Under the pieces are notes generated by a model that saw only the letters and a program-made list of their open reading frames with translations, was not told the origin of the DNA and searched no databases. This document shows, one piece after another, positions 1-40,834 of a stretch of 40,834 nt of DNA (positions are counted from its first letter, which is position 1; the number at the start of each line of letters is the position of its first letter). Position numbers and translations under genes: made by a program. Source of the stretch: Planctomycetia bacterium. Lineage in GTDB: Bacteria > Planctomycetota > Phycisphaerae > Phycisphaerales > SM1A02. The DNA lies in the NCBI GenBank assembly GCA_005787685.1, contig SYAC01000056.1, positions 1 to 40,834 of the forward strand. The letters run 5' to 3'.

Positions 1-1857
1 CTACCAGTGGATCAGATGGCGAACAATAAAAACATGGCGCCGGCCTTCGCGCAACTTGTGAAAGTTCGCAAGACGCTCGAGAAGCGCTTCGGCGATGTGC
101 AGGATTTTGAGTTCACCATTGAACGCAAAAAATTATGGATGCTGCAAACGCGCCGCGGCAAGCGCACGGCCTTGGCCTATGTGCGCATTGTGCATGACAT
201 GGTGCGCGAAGGTTTGATGAGCCCCGAGGACGCCATCGCATCCAGCGATCCAGAGGCCATGAATCAATTGTTGCAGCCTATTTTTGACCGCCACGCCTAT
301 GAGGCCGCGCGCGCGCAGGGGCGATTCTTGTGCAAGGGTTTGCCGGCAGGTCCAGGCGCGGCAAGCGGTGAAATTGTTTTAACCGCCGGCAAGGCCGAGG
401 AAATGGTCAAGCAAGGCAAGCGCGTTGTTTTGGTGCGCGTTGAAACAAGTCCCGAGGATTTGCGCGGCATGATCGCGGCCGATGGAATTCTCACCGCGCG
501 TGGTGGCGTGAGCAGTCACGCCGCGCTTGTGGCGCGTCAAATGGGCAAGGTGTGCGTGGTGGGCGCAGGCGCGCTTGAAGTGGATTATCACAAGGGCACC
601 GTTTCGTGCGCCGGAAAAGTATTGCGCGAAGGCGATTCACTTTCCATCGACGGCACCACGGGAGAAGTCTTCACTGGTTCCATTGACACCGCCGACAGCG
701 AGTTGAAGCAAGTCTTGATCGCCAAGACCATGAAGCCCGCCGACAGCGATATTTTCCGCTACTACTCCTTCGTGATGAAGTTGGCGGACAAGTATCGACG
801 ACTTGGAATTCGCACCAACGCCGACACGCCGGAGCAAACGCACAACGCGCTGGCCTTTGGCGCCGAGGGCATTGGTCTGTGCCGCACCGAGCACATGTTC
901 TTTGAGGGGCATCGCATTGACGTGATGCGCGAAATGATTTTGGCGCGCACGGAAGTGGCGCGTCGCGCGGCCCTGGCCAAGTTGCTGCCGTTTCAGCGCG
1001 GCGACTTTGAGGGAATCTTCCGTGCGCTTGATGGCGCGCCCGCGTGCATTCGCTTGCTCGATCCGCCGCTGCATGAATTCTTGCCCAATGATTCCGCAAC
1101 GCAGCAAGCGCTGGCGGCCAAACTTGGCGTGACCGCGGAGCAGGTGGCGGCGCGCGTGCATGAATTGCATGAGTTCAATCCCATGCTTGGTTTCCGCGGT
1201 TGCCGCCTTGGCACCGTGTATCCCGAGATCAGCGAAATGCAAGTGCGCTCCATCTTTGAGGCCGCGGCGCAAGTGCAATCCGAAGGCGTCAAGGTTCGAC
1301 CCGAGATCATGATTCCGCTAGTTGGTTTCGCCAAGGAGCTTGACATTCAAGTGGAGCTCACGCACCGCGTGGCCAAGGAAGTCATGGCTGCCACGAAGCA
1401 GAAGTTGCAATACATGGTTGGAACCATGATTGAAATTCCGCGTGGCGCGCTCACGGCCAACACGATCGCGCAAACCGCGGAGTTCTTTTCATTCGGCACC
1501 AACGATCTCACGCAAACATGCCTAGGCATGAGCCGCGATGATTCAGGAAGTTTCCTCCCCAAATATGCCGATTTGGAAATCATCGCCGACAATCCGTTCG
1601 CATCCATAGATGTCGCCGGCGTGGGCCAACTCGTTCGCACAGCGGTGCAACTTGGCCAGCAAACGCGTCCCGACATCAAGTTGGGAATTTGCGGCGAGCA
1701 TGGTGGTGATCCAGCCAGCATTACATTCTTTCATAATGTGGGTTTGGCGTATGTCAGTTGCTCGCCGTTTCGTGTTCCAGTTGCACGGCTTGCCGCCGCG
1801 CGCGCCGCGATCCTGGATCCCAAGCGCGCCAAGTCCGCAAAGGTCAAACGCAAGTGA
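1..1857 (+). CDS. ppdK: Pyruvate, phosphate dikinase, C-terminal part (5' end outside window)
   Basis: The reading frame is already open at base 1, so the N-terminal ATP-grasp part lies outside the window; about 618 codons remain of a protein usually near 870-900 residues. PPDK interconverts pyruvate, ATP and phosphate with PEP, AMP and pyrophosphate in the cytoplasm. The end of the nucleotide-binding domain is visible ([20 protein letters not shown]). The swivelling phosphohistidine domain follows, with [19 protein letters not shown]; the His codon is near 517, about residue 171 counted from base 7. The C-terminal TIM-barrel PEP domain has [22 protein letters not shown] and the ending [10 protein letters not shown]...[17 protein letters not shown], with the catalytic Cys in SCSPFRVP. 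The TGA stop overlaps the GTG of the next gene. The PPDK call, rather than PEP synthase, rests on the [13 protein letters not shown] tail and motif spacing. Confidence 0.95.
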
Positions 1858-2858
1858 GATTTTCTGCAGCCGGTTTACTCGCCGCATTGTGCGCCTTGAT
1901 CTCGTGTCAACACAGCGCCTATGCGCCGTGGCCTAGGGAATTGGCTCCCGGCACGGTGCGCCATTATTCATGCCGCAAAATATCCGACAGCACGCAACAG
2001 TTGTTGGCAAATGATATTTCCAAATTAAAGAAAGAGTTGGCCGCACTGCCCAAGACCGACGCGGGCAAGGTCCAAGGCGAAGACATTCAAAAAAAAATCT
2101 CCTCGCTCGAGTTTGAGCAGAGCCAGCGAGAGGGCATTCTGTTGGACGGAATATTGGATGAGGAGGAGTGGGACATCGCGCCTTGGAGCGAACACTTTGT
2201 GGATATTGAGGGCACTCACATCACAAATCCCCGCTTTGGGACATGGATGAAGATGCTGTGGGACAACGACTATTTGTATGTCGCAGCCTTTTTAGAAGAA
2301 CCCCATGTGTGGGGCACTTATAACAAGCGCGACATGGTTGTCTTTCACGAAAATGATTTTGAAATTTTCATTGATCCTCAATATGAAATATTCACTGGTC
2401 ATGAGGCAAATCACCAGTCCTATTATGAAATTGAATTTAATGTGATTGGGACAGTGTTCGATCTCTATTTGACCAAGGAATATCGTAAAGGTGGTATCGC
2501 GCATCACGAATGGAATTGCGAAGGTCTTGTTGGGGTGCTCAACAGTGTGGGTACTCAAAATAATCACAAGGATGAGGACACAGGCTGGTATGTGGAAATT
2601 GCAATTCCATTCAAGTGCTTGCGGCCTCCAAGCACAGTCCAAAATGATGTCACTGAAAATATCCGGGATGGGTTATCACCTCTTGAAGGCGACCGATGGC
2701 GCATCAATTTCTCACGTGTGGAATGGGAACTTGAAAAAGTTGGCACGGGCTATGTCAAGAAGCCAGGCACCAAAGAGGACAACTGGGTGTGGTCTCCTCA
2801 ATGGGCCATCGACATGCATCGTTTGGAGCACTGGGGTATCCTTACCTTTATTGATTGA
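1854..2858 (+). CDS. CBM9-like carbohydrate-binding lipoprotein carrying an inserted segment
   Basis: The GTG start at 1854 overlaps the ppdK stop (GTGA), giving 334 residues. The frame stays open further upstream, but this start gives a clean lipoprotein signal: [17 protein letters not shown], with lipobox LISC at about residue 20. From about residue 94 the protein resembles the CBM9-like family 9 sugar-binding fold found in many secreted planctomycete and Bacteroidetes proteins: [76 protein letters not shown]. An outer-envelope role in binding or sensing glycans is inferred. Residues 55-90 are nearly identical to a segment of the M16 peptidase at 15244-17247 and interrupt the usual strand leading into the LDG...LDE..W motif. 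No catalytic domain is present. Coupling to ppdK suggests co-translation but no obvious metabolic link. Confidence 0.8.
2016..2123 (+). repeat. In-frame coding repeat, copy 1 (inside CBM9-like gene)
   Basis: This 108-base segment encodes 36 residues starting [18 protein letters not shown] and ending EFEQS. It matches bases 16779-16672 (minus strand) inside the M16 peptidase gene. Counted by hand, 93 of 108 bases and 31 of 36 residues are identical, with no gaps. Eight of the 13 changed codons are synonymous, so both copies appear to have been kept as protein. Weak similarity continues for about 6 codons downstream (GGCATTCTG against AGCATTGTG); upstream similarity stops within two codons. The hosts are otherwise unrelated. 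Confidence 0.85.
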
Positions 2859-13648: not shown

Positions 13649-15247
13649 TTAACGCGAAGGAGCTAGGCCTTCGCCACCAGTTGTTGGTGCAGTCGGAGTG
13701 ACTTGATCCATCTTTACAACAGGCTGCATAGTCATAGGATCACGCAGGGGCAAATGCGTCACTTTGCCCCCTAGCAAATCGTCCATTTTAGCGCGCCCCG
13801 TGCTGTCGCCAGGACCCACGGTGTTCCAATCGCCGACAACCAAAAGCACCATTTCATTTGGAGTGATGTATTTTTTGGCTACCCGTTGCAAGTCGGCGGC
13901 TGTGACCGCCATCACTTTTTCACGGAAAGTCCTCCAATATTCCTTGGGTCTATTCGTCCACTCGTCGCCAACAAACACGCCAAGCATGGCTGGCTTGCTT
14001 TCGAATGTGCGTGGAAAAGTTTCAATGAACTGGCGCTTGGCGGTCTCCAATTCCTCGGCGGTGACTGGCTGATTGCGAACTTTGTCCAATTCTTCAAGTA
14101 CAATTTTTGCCGCCAACGCCACGGTTGGGTTCTTACTTTCATAACTGGCCGCGAACACGCCTGGGTAATACACCTTGGCCGCCAGGCGGCTTCCCGCGGA
14201 GTAGGCCAAGCCTTCATTGCTGCGCACTTGTTGCATGATGCGGCTGGTGAAACCACCGCCGCCTAAAATGTCATTCAGCAATAAATAGGGAATGTAATCA
14301 GGATCATCGCGTGTGATGGAGCGCATACCAATGCGAACCTTGCCTTGAGGAATGTCCTTTTGCACATGGTAAATGCCGGGAACAATCTTGGCGGTTGGAG
14401 CTGGTGGATCGGGCATCATTTCGCCGCGCGTCCAGCCATCAAATGCCGCGTTGAGCTTGGCAAGCATGGCCGTCGGTTCAAAATCTCCGCTGACCGCGAT
14501 AATGACATTACCAGGATGAAAGATGCGCTTCTGAAATGCGCGCATGTTGTCCGGCGTGATCGCCTTCAAACTAGCCTCGGTTGAATCAAGCGACTCAAAG
14601 TGGTCGCTTCCGTACATCAAGCGATTCCACTCGCGGCCCATGATGGAACCCGCGTCATCGTTGCGTTGCTTCATGCCCTCTAAGGCTTGGCCGCGGTTGG
14701 TTTCCAAACGCGCCGCGTCAAAGCCGGGATTGCGCAACATGTCCACGAACAACTTCAAGCTTTGATCAAAATTGCTGGACAAGCAATTCATGCTGGCGCT
14801 ACTTGTGGTGTCGCCGCAACTGGCGGAAATTTGCGTGGCCAGAAAATCAATCTCCTCGTCAAATTCAGCGGGTTTCATGTTGGTTGTCCCACCTTCTCGA
14901 ATCATGCGGCCGGTCATTGCAGCCAAACCAACCATGTCCTTGGGCTCAAGATAGTTGCCACCCTTAAAGGTCATGCTCAAGGCAATCAAAGGAAACTCCT
15001 TGGAGGGCGCCATGTACACGGCGGTTCCGTCTTTGAGCGTGAAACGAAATTGGGCGGCTTGCGGTGGCTCAAAGGTAAGCGGTCCATAGGTGATGTCCTC
15101 GGGGCGCTTGGGCAATTGAGAGGGCGCGGTTTGTTGTGCCGCAAAAAGTGGAAGAGCGACTGAGGCCAGCAGCAGTGTTGCGATTGTTGTTTTCATTGTG
15201 TTGTTTCCGTTGAAGAAATTGAAAGCGTTCAGTTTGGAATAATTCAT
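13649..15247 (-). CDS. Secreted M16-family zinc-peptidase homologue lacking the catalytic motif
   Basis: 532 residues. The ATG at 15247 overlaps the stop of the catalytic M16 gene (ATGA); the inner ATG at 15196 gives a cleaner signal peptide (MKTTIATLLLASVALPLFAA). Two M16 halves are visible: an N-terminal one with TFKGGNYLEPKDMVGLAAMT, where HxxEH is absent and replaced by GLAAMTGRMIREGG, and a C-terminal one with NDILGGGGFTSRIMQQVRSNEGLAYS. The latter is the substrate-closing subunit signature. In two-component M16B peptidases such a non-catalytic partner forms a heterodimer with the HxxEH subunit, and the operon order here fits that. A periplasmic or outer-membrane location is inferred from the signal peptide. 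A hairpin terminator follows the stop. Confidence 0.9.
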   Translation of the reverse strand: MNYSKLNAFNFFNGNNTMKTTIATLLLASVALPLFAAQQTAPSQLPKRPEDITYGPLTFEPPQAAQFRFTLKDGTAVYMAPSKEFPLIALSMTFKGGNYLEPKDMVGLAAMTGRMIREGGTTNMKPAEFDEEIDFLATQISASCGDTTSSASMNCLSSNFDQSLKLFVDMLRNPGFDAARLETNRGQALEGMKQRNDDAGSIMGREWNRLMYGSDHFESLDSTEASLKAITPDNMRAFQKRIFHPGNVIIAVSGDFEPTAMLAKLNAAFDGWTRGEMMPDPPAPTAKIVPGIYHVQKDIPQGKVRIGMRSITRDDPDYIPYLLLNDILGGGGFTSRIMQQVRSNEGLAYSAGSRLAAKVYYPGVFAASYESKNPTVALAAKIVLEELDKVRNQPVTAEELETAKRQFIETFPRTFESKPAMLGVFVGDEWTNRPKEYWRTFREKVMAVTAADLQRVAKKYITPNEMVLLVVGDWNTVGPGDSTGRAKMDDLLGGKVTHLPLRDPMTMQPVVKMDQVTPTAPTTGGEGLAPSR

Positions 15248-17247
15248 TGACCACCACTCTTTGTAGCCGACGCAGCCGCGGGGGATGCCGCGGGCGCGGT
15301 CTTTGCCGAGGTCTTTGGCTTGGCATTGGGTTCGGGAAGCGCGGCATCGGTTGGTGCCGCGGGCGCGGCGCCACCACCAGCTTCAAGTTCCGCAATGCGT
15401 CCTTGCAATTTCTTTTTCATGTAATCAAACATGGGTTTCATTTGCGGAGGAACTTGCGCACTTTGCGCCTCCATGGCGTCGAGTCCTTGACGAAGTTCCG
15501 CGGGATCCGTGGACTGCATCAACTGGGAAGCCATTTGCTTGGCGCGCGCGCGCATGGGGGCAGGCAATGCCGCCAAATCAGGATCGTCGCCTGCAGCCGC
15601 CGCGCCAGGCTTGCGCTTATATGTGGCAACGCTGCGGTTGCTTACATCAAAGTAGGTCTTGGCCACGCGTTGAATATCGGCAGCGGTAACAGCCTGCAAT
15701 TTCTTTGGCATTTCATTCAGTTCTTTCCATCCAACGGTGTTTTCGGCGTATGCCAATTGCACCAAGAGCATGAAATTACTTTGCAGTCGGCGATAGCTGT
15801 CGGCCGCAACTCCATTCTTCACCTTTTGCAATTCGCGATCGGAAACAAGCTCGTCCTGCAACTTCTTCAGTTCGCCGTACCACGCCTGCTCTAATTGCTC
15901 AGGCGTTGAATCGCCCTTGGTTTCGGCTCCAAACCCAAATGCACCTGCATATTTACGGCCGTCGTAATTAGCGCGCGCGCTCGAGGCAATGCTGCTGCCT
16001 TCGATCATGGTCTTGTACAAACGGCCAGTGCGGCCGTTGAGAATCTCGCTCATCATGTCGAGCGCGTAGCCATCCTTGTGGCCAAGCGGAACGGTGTGAT
16101 AGCGAACATCCACTTCGGGTTGGAAATCACCCTCGGCGTTCATGCGTTGCTCCGCCATTTGCTTGGTCTCCAGTGTGACCACGGGCGGCGGGTTCACTTT
16201 GCCTGGTTCAAGGCGGCCAAAATATTGCTCAATCTTGGCTTTCACTTCGGCGGGTTTGAAGTCGCCCACAATGACACCCACCAAATTGTTGGGGCGGTAG
16301 TAGGTGTTCCAATACTCCATTGCGCCATCCATGGTGTAACTGTTCAAATCGCTGGTCCAACCGATAATGGGCCACGAGTAGCCGCTGGAAATCCAGAACA
16401 TGGCTTCAAACTGCTCTTGAAAGCGTCCCGTAGGCGTGCTCTCTGTTCGAAGTCTGCGCTCCTCATGCACCACATCTCTCTCTGAATAAAATTCACGGAA
16501 CACGCTGTCCATTAAGCGGTCACTTTCCATCCAAGCCCATAATTCAAATTTATTGGATGGCACATTGATGAAATAAAATGTGAGATCGTGGCTCGTAAAC
16601 GCGTTCATTCCGCTGCCGCCAGCCTTCGTGTAAATCTGATCGAATTCATCCTTCACAATGCTGGCTTGCGCGCTCTGCTCAAGCTCCAGTCTGGAGATTT
16701 GCTTTTGAATGTCCTCGCCTTGGGCCTTACCCGCGTCGGTCTTTGGCAGCGCGGCCAAGTCCTTCTTTAACTTGGAAATAGCATCCGCAGATGAGCGACC
16801 CTGTTGCTGGTCCATGACTTTCTTCAATTGCGCGCGCAGATCCTTCAGCTCTGGAGTGTCGTTGTTTGGATTCCATGGATCATCAATTTCACCCTTGAAG
16901 AAACGCGTGTACTGGGTGGTCCACGCCATCTGATTGATTTGATTGCGCAGCATCTTTTGTTGCGCGCGGTACTCGGCGTCCTTCTGGGGATCGCGCGTGC
17001 CGATAGTGGTGGTCCCCTTGAACATCATGTGCTCAAAGAAGTGGCTGATGCCGGTAATGCTTGGGCGCTCATTCACCGATCCAACCTTGGCCAGCCAACC
17101 CGCGGCGATGACATTGGGTTGATCCGTTCGCGGCACCAGGAGAAACTTCATTCCGTTTGGAAGTGTGAATTCCTGAACATCCACTTGCTGTGCCGAAGCG
17201 GTGGTGGCGGCTACCAGCAGTGACAATAGAACGACAAGTAATCTCAT
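15244..17247 (-). CDS. Secreted M16-family zinc metallopeptidase, catalytic subunit, with inserted segment
   Basis: 667 residues from the ATG at 17247, which follows AAGGAG at ideal spacing; signal peptide MRLLVVLLSLLVAATTASAQ. The inverted zinc motif HFFEH is at residues 69-73 in GISHFFEHMMFKGT, and the third-ligand region is SERDVVHEERRLRTE around residue 262. Between them lies an unusually long stretch (about residues 90-197), including residues 157-192 that recur in the CBM9-like gene at 2016-2123. The C-terminal half has the M16 SEILNGRTGRLYKTMIE motif. The last 100 residues form an extension ending in an Ala/Pro/Lys-rich tail. The family normally runs near 420-480 residues, so this one is enlarged twice over. 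It is coupled to the non-catalytic partner downstream. The likely role is envelope proteolysis of peptides or unfolded proteins. Confidence 0.93.
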   Translation of the reverse strand: MRLLVVLLSLLVAATTASAQQVDVQEFTLPNGMKFLLVPRTDQPNVIAAGWLAKVGSVNERPSITGISHFFEHMMFKGTTTIGTRDPQKDAEYRAQQKMLRNQINQMAWTTQYTRFFKGEIDDPWNPNNDTPELKDLRAQLKKVMDQQQGRSSADAISKLKKDLAALPKTDAGKAQGEDIQKQISRLELEQSAQASIVKDEFDQIYTKAGGSGMNAFTSHDLTFYFINVPSNKFELWAWMESDRLMDSVFREFYSERDVVHEERRLRTESTPTGRFQEQFEAMFWISSGYSWPIIGWTSDLNSYTMDGAMEYWNTYYRPNNLVGVIVGDFKPAEVKAKIEQYFGRLEPGKVNPPPVVTLETKQMAEQRMNAEGDFQPEVDVRYHTVPLGHKDGYALDMMSEILNGRTGRLYKTMIEGSSIASSARANYDGRKYAGAFGFGAETKGDSTPEQLEQAWYGELKKLQDELVSDRELQKVKNGVAADSYRRLQSNFMLLVQLAYAENTVGWKELNEMPKKLQAVTAADIQRVAKTYFDVSNRSVATYKRKPGAAAAGDDPDLAALPAPMRARAKQMASQLMQSTDPAELRQGLDAMEAQSAQVPPQMKPMFDYMKKKLQGRIAELEAGGGAAPAAPTDAALPEPNAKPKTSAKTAPAASPAAASATKSGGQ
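16672..16779 (-). repeat. In-frame coding repeat, copy 2 (inside M16 peptidase gene)
   Basis: Encodes residues 157-192 of the M16 protein, from [18 protein letters not shown] to LELEQS. It aligns without gaps to 2016-2123 on the plus strand. It sits in the helical linker between the HxxEH motif and the KDEFDQIY...NAFTS segment. From memory of M16 relatives, this linker normally joins directly to the KDEFDxIY motif, so this copy may also be an insertion. Confidence 0.85.
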
Positions 17248-17400
17248 GGAAATCTCCTTCATGAACGTGATTGATAATTGAACAAGATCTGAACGCCTGA
17301 ATTAGGGACTATTCATGATATACGGACTTACATAGTGCTAATTTTCGATTTCTTGCTAGAGATTCTTGGACATTTCCTAGTGTTGGGGTAATCTTCACAT

Positions 17401-39262: not shown

Positions 39263-40834
39263 GTTCATCAACAGATATTCCGCTGCCAGTCGCTGACATG
39301 CAAGGTGGCTGTGGTTGCGCTTCAACGCAAGGCGTGTCCGCGCAACAAAGTGGTTGTGGTTGCGCTTCAACGCAAGGCGTGTCCGCGCAACCCAAAGGTG
39401 CAGCGACGGGCCGATCACTGTGGCGCTCACTTGGCGCGCAATCCGCCGACGCGCAAACCAGCGAGTTTATTGCGCGCGAATTCTCCGCTGCCAGCGATGT
39501 GCTTGAAGGCGACGACCGCCGCAACTTCATCAAGATCATGGGCGCGGGTTTCGCGCTTGCGGGTCTTGGCCTGACTGGTTGCCGCCGATGGCCAGAATCA
39601 AAAATTGTTCCCAACGCTAGTCAGCCCGCCAACCGCACGCCTGGCGTGTCGGTGACCTATTCAACCGCCGTGGATTTCAGGGGCATTGGTTACGCGCTTG
39701 TGGCCACCAGTTACGACGGTCGCCCGATCAAGCTCGACGGCAACGCGGAGCATCCATATTGGGGCGGAACATCCACAAGTTGGATGCAGGCGCGCGTGCT
39801 TGAACTGTATGACCCCGATCGCAGCCGTCAGGTGTTCAAGGCCGGCAAGGCATCGAACATCGCGGAGTTCAACGCATGGCTGGGCGAGCGCGCGAAGGCG
39901 CTGTCGGCCAAGCAGGGCGAAGGGCTGGCCATCCTGACGCAGGCCACCTCGAGCCCGTCGATGAAGGACATGCTGGCCCGCGTGCAGCAGGCGTTCCCCA
40001 AGGCGAAGGTCGCGGCGTGGGAGGCACTCGCCGCAACCGCATCGCTGGATGGCACGCAGGTCGCGTTCGGCGCACCGATGCGTCTGGTGCCGCGGGTGGA
40101 GAAGGCCAGCGTGATCGTGGCCCTGGATTGGGACATGCTCGGAACCGACCCGATGGCGCTGCGTCACACGCGCATGTGGGCCGAGGGTCGTCGCCTGAAT
40201 GGCGCGGACCCGAGCAAGCAGACGCAGAACCGTCTGTACGCGTTCGAACCGCACGTGACCGTGACCGGCATGGCGGCCGACAGCCGCGTGGCCGTGCGTC
40301 GCGGCGACATCGCCGTGCTCGCCGCCATGATCGCGCAGGCGCTTGGCGTGGGTGGCGATGCGTCGCTCACGGCGGCCATCGGTCGCCTGGCTTCCAGCCC
40401 CGCTGCCAAGGGCATGCTCGATGAGCATTCGAAGGAAGTCTTCGATCAACTAGTGAAGGACCTGCAGGGAGCCAAGGGTGCCTGCTTCGTGATGTGCGGC
40501 ACCGGCCAGAGCGCCGAGGTGCACGCGCTGGTGGCGGCGATCAATCACGCGATCGGTGCCATGGGCAACACCGTGGGCGTGCATGCCGCCGATGCGGCTG
40601 CCATGCGCCTGCCCGAACTGGTGACGGCGATGAACGCCGGCCAGATGGACACGCTGCTGATCCTCGGCGCCAATCCCTGTTACGACGCTCCCGCCGATCT
40701 CGCCTTCGCGAAGGCGCTGGCGAAGGTGCCCAACGTGGCGCGTCTGGCGTACTACCGCGACGAGACCAGCGTGGATCCCGCGTGCACGTTCCATGTGCCG
40801 CAGGCCCACTTCCTGGAGTGCTGGGGCGATGTCA
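39259..40834 (+). CDS. actB: Alternative Complex III iron-sulfur/molybdopterin-like subunit ActB, N-terminal part (3' end outside window)
   Basis: 525 codons are visible, with no stop to the window end. The ATG overlaps the actA stop. Residues 16-45 are a 15-residue tandem duplication rich in Cys and Gly. Then comes LWRSLGAQS...SEFIAREF, a Tat-type signal DDRRNFIKIMGAGFALAGLGL (Arg87-Arg88), and CRRWPESKIVP...QPANRTPGV, all matching the usual ActB N-terminus. The following RPIKLDGNAEHPYWGGTS and ARVLELYDPDRSR continue the molybdopterin-oxidoreductase-like domain, which lacks cofactor in characterised complexes. Ferredoxin-type cysteine clusters expected near the C-terminus lie outside. From about 39840 the codon use changes sharply to GC-ending codons, though the protein stays ActB-like. 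tatC of this window could serve its export. Confidence 0.93.
   Translation, partial: MSSSTDIPLPVADMQGGCGCASTQGVSAQQSGCGCASTQGVSAQPKGAATGRSLWRSLGAQSADAQTSEFIAREFSAASDVLEGDDRRNFIKIMGAGFALAGLGLTGCRRWPESKIVPNASQPANRTPGVSVTYSTAVDFRGIGYALVATSYDGRPIKLDGNAEHPYWGGTSTSWMQARVLELYDPDRSRQVFKAGKASNIAEFNAWLGERAKALSAKQGEGLAILTQATSSPSMKDMLARVQQAFPKAKVAAWEALAATASLDGTQVAFGAPMRLVPRVEKASVIVALDWDMLGTDPMALRHTRMWAEGRRLNGADPSKQTQNRLYAFEPHVTVTGMAADSRVAVRRGDIAVLAAMIAQALGVGGDASLTAAIGRLASSPAAKGMLDEHSKEVFDQLVKDLQGAKGACFVMCGTGQSAEVHALVAAINHAIGAMGNTVGVHAADAAAMRLPELVTAMNAGQMDTLLILGANPCYDAPADLAFAKALAKVPNVARLAYYRDETSVDPACTFHVPQAHFLECWGDV
39304..39393 (+). repeat. 45-base tandem duplication in the 5' part of actB
   Basis: Units 39304-39348 and 39349-39393 match at 41 of 45 bases and include a run of identical bases starting TGTGGTTGCGCTTCAACGCA. 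Each unit encodes 15 residues, GGCGCASTQGVSAQQ and SGCGCASTQGVSAQP. The frame is kept. The high identity indicates a recent duplication. Confidence 0.95.

Follow-up and report, generated by a model that had tools for sequence, protein, structure and literature searches.

A helical hairpin of an M16 peptidase gene appears to have been copied in frame into a CBM9-like lipoprotein gene of a planctomycete

The window analyzed here, a stretch of 40,834 nucleotides from contig SYAC01000056.1 of a Planctomycetia bacterium, contains two otherwise unrelated genes, for a CBM9-like lipoprotein and an M16 peptidase, that share a closely similar protein-coding tract. Comparison of each gene with its relatives gives good support to the view that the DNA encoding a helical hairpin was copied from the M16 gene into the lipoprotein gene in the sense orientation and in frame. 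The case appears to be a one-off copying of a gene fragment and not the action of a mobile element. We consider it highly probable that the account as a whole is right, namely that an in-frame copy of the M16 hairpin arose on the branch of this species through a single illegitimate event and that it now has the role of a spacer.

The two genes align without gaps over positions 2016-2123 of the forward strand and 16779-16672 of the reverse strand, where 93 of 108 bases are identical and the encoded 36-residue strings agree at 31 positions and differ at 5. The 15 differing positions of this 108-nt core fall in 13 codons, 8 of which are silent on recount, and the Nei-Gojobori method apportions the differences as 8.8 silent and 6.2 amino-acid-changing. 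These values reproduce the base, residue and codon counts that a preliminary description of the DNA had obtained by hand. The coordinates given there hold for the core but are slightly short as a measure of its extent, given that a repeat finder returned an inverted, ungapped tract of 136 nt at 82% identity (2011-2146 on the forward strand versus 16649-16784) and that the net insertion in the lipoprotein gene occupies about 1992-2135. The match is not a matter of chance, since a DNA search found the second copy in the window's own genome at E 5.3e-32 and seven further matches at E values of at least 0.038.

The recipient gene (1854-2858, forward strand) encodes a protein of 334 residues if translation begins at a GTG codon that overlaps the stop codon of the upstream gene; this start and a lipobox-like ...ALISC motif were read by eye. 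The protein matches Pfam CBM9_1 (PF06452, E 1.1e-10), and a structure match of its model indicates that the predicted fold resembles the CBM9 structures 4jpq and 1i82. The donor gene (15244-17262, reverse strand) matches PF00675 (E 8e-12) and PF05193 (E 9.9e-27), and the earlier assignment of the two genes to the CBM9-like and M16 families is thus upheld. Orthologue comparison defines a net in-frame insertion of 48 codons (144 nt; TQQLLAND...QREG) between C-RKISDS and ILL-DG of the lipoprotein. The first 19 nt or so of the insertion (1992-2010, forward strand) have no clear match in the M16 gene and may be diverged donor sequence or filler. At the 3' end, GCATT.TG is common to the insertion and the M16 gene. 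At the 5' end, GCAACAG is shared near the expected place; when 1981-2012 was aligned locally with the M16 flank, the match was not significant (shuffle P 0.21). Both junctions are old.

The insertion site is empty in the relatives of the lipoprotein. We measured the spacer from the third residue of a Y-x-C motif, which is C in many members and other residues elsewhere, to the DG motif in 109 lipoprotein loci (30 + 79). We set aside the window itself and four loci that miss the site, leaving 104, of which 5 are contigs counted twice, to judge by their identical lengths. The spacer is 9 residues long in 103 of the 104 loci (98 by pattern and 5 by eye, the latter with one motif letter changed), the sole exception being locus L037 with 11 residues, and this near-constant length spans records titled Planctomycetota, Acidobacteria and Bacteroidota. 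The spacer of the window's lipoprotein is 57 residues long, which is 48 more than 9, and the other 33 proteins of the lipoprotein alignment have no insertion at that place. The preliminary description had proposed that CBM9 orthologues be checked for the segment, and the answer is that they lack it.

In the M16 protein, the shared tract belongs to a helical hairpin unit of 49 residues (QQGR...AQAS; 16660-16806, reverse strand) that is present or absent in different M16 genes. The M16 alignment includes 29 relatives with 61-94% identity, and the hairpin occupies the same place in 25 of the 30 best-scoring loci (the window's plus the 29 from relatives); the 5 more distant loci (L067-L071) lack about 45 residues at that site. 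A profile built from 24 of these 25 hairpins and searched in 301 genomes at E 0.001 matched 80 of them, with one match in each genome and two in the window's own. Of the 81 hairpin matches, 80 fall within M16 genes and the remaining one is the lipoprotein. When M16 genes were sought in as many relatives, 125 genomes gave matches at E 1e-40, and in 45 of these the profile did not detect a hairpin. A query with the lipoprotein copy matched 37 of 301 genomes, the window's included, at E 1; nine congeners did so at E 6.7e-12 or better, all at M16 genes by position, and the other matching genomes were weaker (E 3.5e-5 and above). Because the hairpin is old in M16 genes and the corresponding site is empty in the relatives of the lipoprotein, the M16 gene is the giver and the lipoprotein gene the receiver. 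An in-frame insertion that orthologues lack is seen in the lipoprotein only, and the copying of an M16 fragment into the lipoprotein gene, which the preliminary description had offered as an alternative, is supported. Two minor features concern M16 genes and their surroundings. The M16 orthologue of congener G011 (locus L045), from a draft genome, has one in-frame TAA at about codon 410, and a second open frame (13649-15247, reverse strand) directly downstream of the window's M16 gene weakly matches the protein of that gene, with 26% identity over part.

Structure models yield a two-helix hairpin in both proteins, as had been anticipated from the sequence. The M16 model (mean pLDDT 69, with block means of 85-89 over residues 151-190) has helices at residues 154-165 and 171-194, and the copied part corresponds to residues 157-192. 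The lipoprotein model (mean pLDDT 89, with block means of 82-96 over residues 21-70) has helices at residues 23-41 and 46-68, after the first strand. According to these models, what was moved from the enzyme into a loop of a beta-sandwich is a two-helix hairpin, which is predicted to fold independently in its new host. The description of both sites as surface linkers was imprecise in that the M16 segment is itself a two-helix hairpin in the model.

An obvious question is what mechanism could have moved the hairpin. Comparison gives good support to an event in which about 130-145 bp of the M16 gene (roughly 48 residues), encoding the hairpin, were copied in the sense orientation, with the reading frame kept, into the part of the lipoprotein gene that encodes the loop separating the first strand from the DG motif. 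The two sites are about 12 kb apart and on different strands. We infer that the copying was illegitimate and happened once, through a template switch at a replication fork or through the capture of a single-stranded piece of the chromosome at tiny homologies. The copy may have been kept because it landed in its sole open frame and orientation and because the hairpin folds independently and leaves the fold of its host intact. Read in all six frames, the donor tract is free of stop codons only in the native one. Since the other frames stop and would probably break the gene, the sense, in-frame outcome needs no special explanation.

The M16 and lipoprotein genes are on opposite strands at a distance of 12.4 kb, and seven congeners (G001, G002, G005, G006, G011, G013 and G014) likewise have them on opposite strands of one contig, 10.7-13.5 kb apart. 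In G007 the lipoprotein match is merely 33% identical, and in G031, which is outside the genus, both genes are on the same strand. We do not count the proximity of the two genes as evidence, since the first reading of the DNA could see pairs inside the window only. We also ran a self-comparison of about a fifth of the genome, made up of the window and 20 stretches totaling 400,000 bases (440,834 bases in all), and obtained 58 non-self pairs at E 1e-6. The four pairs that were inspected are what we take to be a dockerin-like domain, HlyD-like paralogues, an ABC signature and a CBM2-like domain. Apart from the lipoprotein/M16 pair of the window, the other pairs, assessed by position only, fall in a gene cluster of stretch L184, within individual open frames of L194, L199 and the window, and in a tandem overlap in L198. 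With four pairs inspected and the others judged by position, no second transplant was seen in this fifth of the genome.

The age and source of the copy were addressed by placing it on an M16 tree of 13 genomes, with 23 placements compared. The placement with the highest likelihood puts the copy on the branch of the M16 gene of the window itself. The next two placements are adjacent branches (delta lnL 4.0, AU P 0.16) and are not rejected, nor is the branch of G003 (AU P 0.23). An unconstrained tree of the 108 nt grouped the copy with the window's own M16 gene with a support of 79, and the number of identical bases over these 108 nt is highest for that gene (93 versus 79-90 for eight congeners). 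When the 15 differences between copy and donor were assigned by the majority of the eight congeners, 10 fell on the side of the copy, 4 on that of the donor and 1 was undecided. These data give moderate support to the branch of this species as the probable place of origin of the copy. Silent divergence between the copy and the window's M16 gene is 0.54 (dS), versus 0.67-0.84 between that M16 gene and those of seven congeners over the aligned gene, the eighth (G014) being saturated. Because of this difference, the event was probably not recent and yet took place within this lineage.

An alternative is that the donor was the M16 gene of another related species, which was transferred horizontally and joined illegitimately. 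Over the short stretch, the dS of the copy is indeed lower to G003 (0.39) and G006 (0.48) than to the window's own M16 gene, and the G003 branch survives the AU test as noted above. The best likelihood and the highest base identity nevertheless both point to the window's own gene, and we regard a foreign donor as unlikely. It could also be that the lipoprotein gene had acquired the insertion earlier and that the other species have since lost it, a reading with which the adjacent placements of the copy are compatible. The near-constant spacer argues against an older insertion; a clean loss in each congener is improbable, and we give this reading very little credence.

The other reading offered in the preliminary description was a mobile in-frame element resembling Rickettsia palindromic elements, which would have inserted into both genes. 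The repeat is in frame within two unrelated genes, the relatives of the lipoprotein lack the piece, and M16 genes, too, vary in whether they have the hairpin, with 80 of the 125 genomes that have an M16 match carrying it by profile. One 9-nt inverted pair was found within 1930-2200 (2071-2079 and 2179-2187), but only one of its arms lies within the insertion. On the other side, the genome of the window has only two copies, and the 79 positive relatives have one each, always in M16, short of the three or more unrelated genes that the preliminary description would have taken to establish an element. At E 0.01, a query with the lipoprotein copy found the window's genome alone among 298 sampled from the class. 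A protein search with E values up to 10 gave no third copy in the window's genome, which is 91% complete and could hold a further one. The insertion also lacks the marks of an element. There are no inverted repeats of at least 8 nt in 1990-2160 and no direct repeats of at least 8 nt in 1930-2200, where shorter or decayed ones are possible; there is no excess folding of the insertion (z 0.25); and no close relative was present in viral contigs in a scan that reaches close relatives only. It had been reasoned that a segment carried by all M16 orthologues and by no other gene would count against a mobile element. Within the genus the M16 orthologues do carry the hairpin, but more distant M16 genes are without it. 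On copy number, repeats and folding we reject the mobile element, which we consider about as improbable as the older insertion. That the contig is an assembly chimera has a negligible probability, for although the genome is a draft (2.37 Mb in 65 contigs), 15 of the 108 positions, and 5 of the residues, differ between the copy and its donor, the copy is in frame in an intact gene, and both genes are similarly arranged in congeners.

To return to the copied M16 hairpin, what does it do in its new host? The core of the lipoprotein has dN/dS values of 0.085-0.167 versus five congeners, for which silent sites are near saturation, and two more congeners are saturated. The M16 donor has values of 0.04-0.08 versus seven congeners over the aligned gene. 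Judged by these ratios, the lipoprotein core is still constrained, and likewise the donor. The copy/donor pair has a dN/dS of 0.14. On the branch of the copy, about 6 of 10-11 changes, assigned by hand, are amino-acid-changing, which is not clearly distinct from the neutral expectation (P 0.06-0.14), whereas for all 15 differences, with the donor branch included, 6 are amino-acid-changing, which does depart from it (P 0.0013). Our best guess is that the insert is most likely a neutral to mildly useful spacer, i.e., a passive or weakly useful one. A bolder possibility, which we consider rather doubtful, is that the hairpin, which some M16 proteins have and others lack, is a portable supersecondary module that was transplanted whole into an unrelated beta-sandwich and has acquired a role there, for example as a spacer or docking arm. 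If so, nature would here have built a fold by copying a sub-domain piece, in an event that can be dated. The sharing of such pieces between folds has been proposed before, but most of the proposed cases are very old and cannot be polarized. Here the donor, the recipient, the empty site and the likely branch are all in hand, together with about a hundred relatives with a near-constant site. The case reveals no novel type of element, and little can be learned about a general process from one event.

Several known systems invite comparison with the copied hairpin. Rickettsia palindromic elements are reportedly the subject of studies by Ogata in 2000 and 2002. They are about 150 bp long and lie in frame in unrelated protein-coding genes, and one Rickettsia genome has 44 integrations in ten families (PMC10969869). 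The present case resembles them in being in frame, in involving unrelated genes and in having relatives of the recipient that lack the piece, and differs from them in having two copies and no family and no palindrome inside the insertion. It differs further in that one of the two sites is old coding sequence of a gene family. Illegitimate recombination has an intragenomic short-patch variant, and intragenomic donors are possible. In naturally transforming Acinetobacter, illegitimate and double illegitimate recombination of short segments are described (PMC8116780, PMC13344027). Compared with such recombination, the hairpin is alike in that a short segment without long homology was relocated, and unlike in that it is known as an evolutionary outcome alone. 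The dockerin-like and CBM2-like modules shuffled in the same genome are likewise compact units common to otherwise different genes, but they recur as separate domains, whereas the hairpin is an internal part of an enzyme and occurs outside M16 once. A literature search of titles and abstract openings, in which family names were barely used and subscription papers lay mostly outside, yielded no report of the gene pair or the hairpin.

Two other features were noted in this genome. Stretch L184, on contig C8, has a cluster of mutually similar large open frames of about 500-670 codons with shorter ones interspersed, and positions 39301-39390 of the window consist of two tandem copies of a 45-nt unit that are 96% identical.
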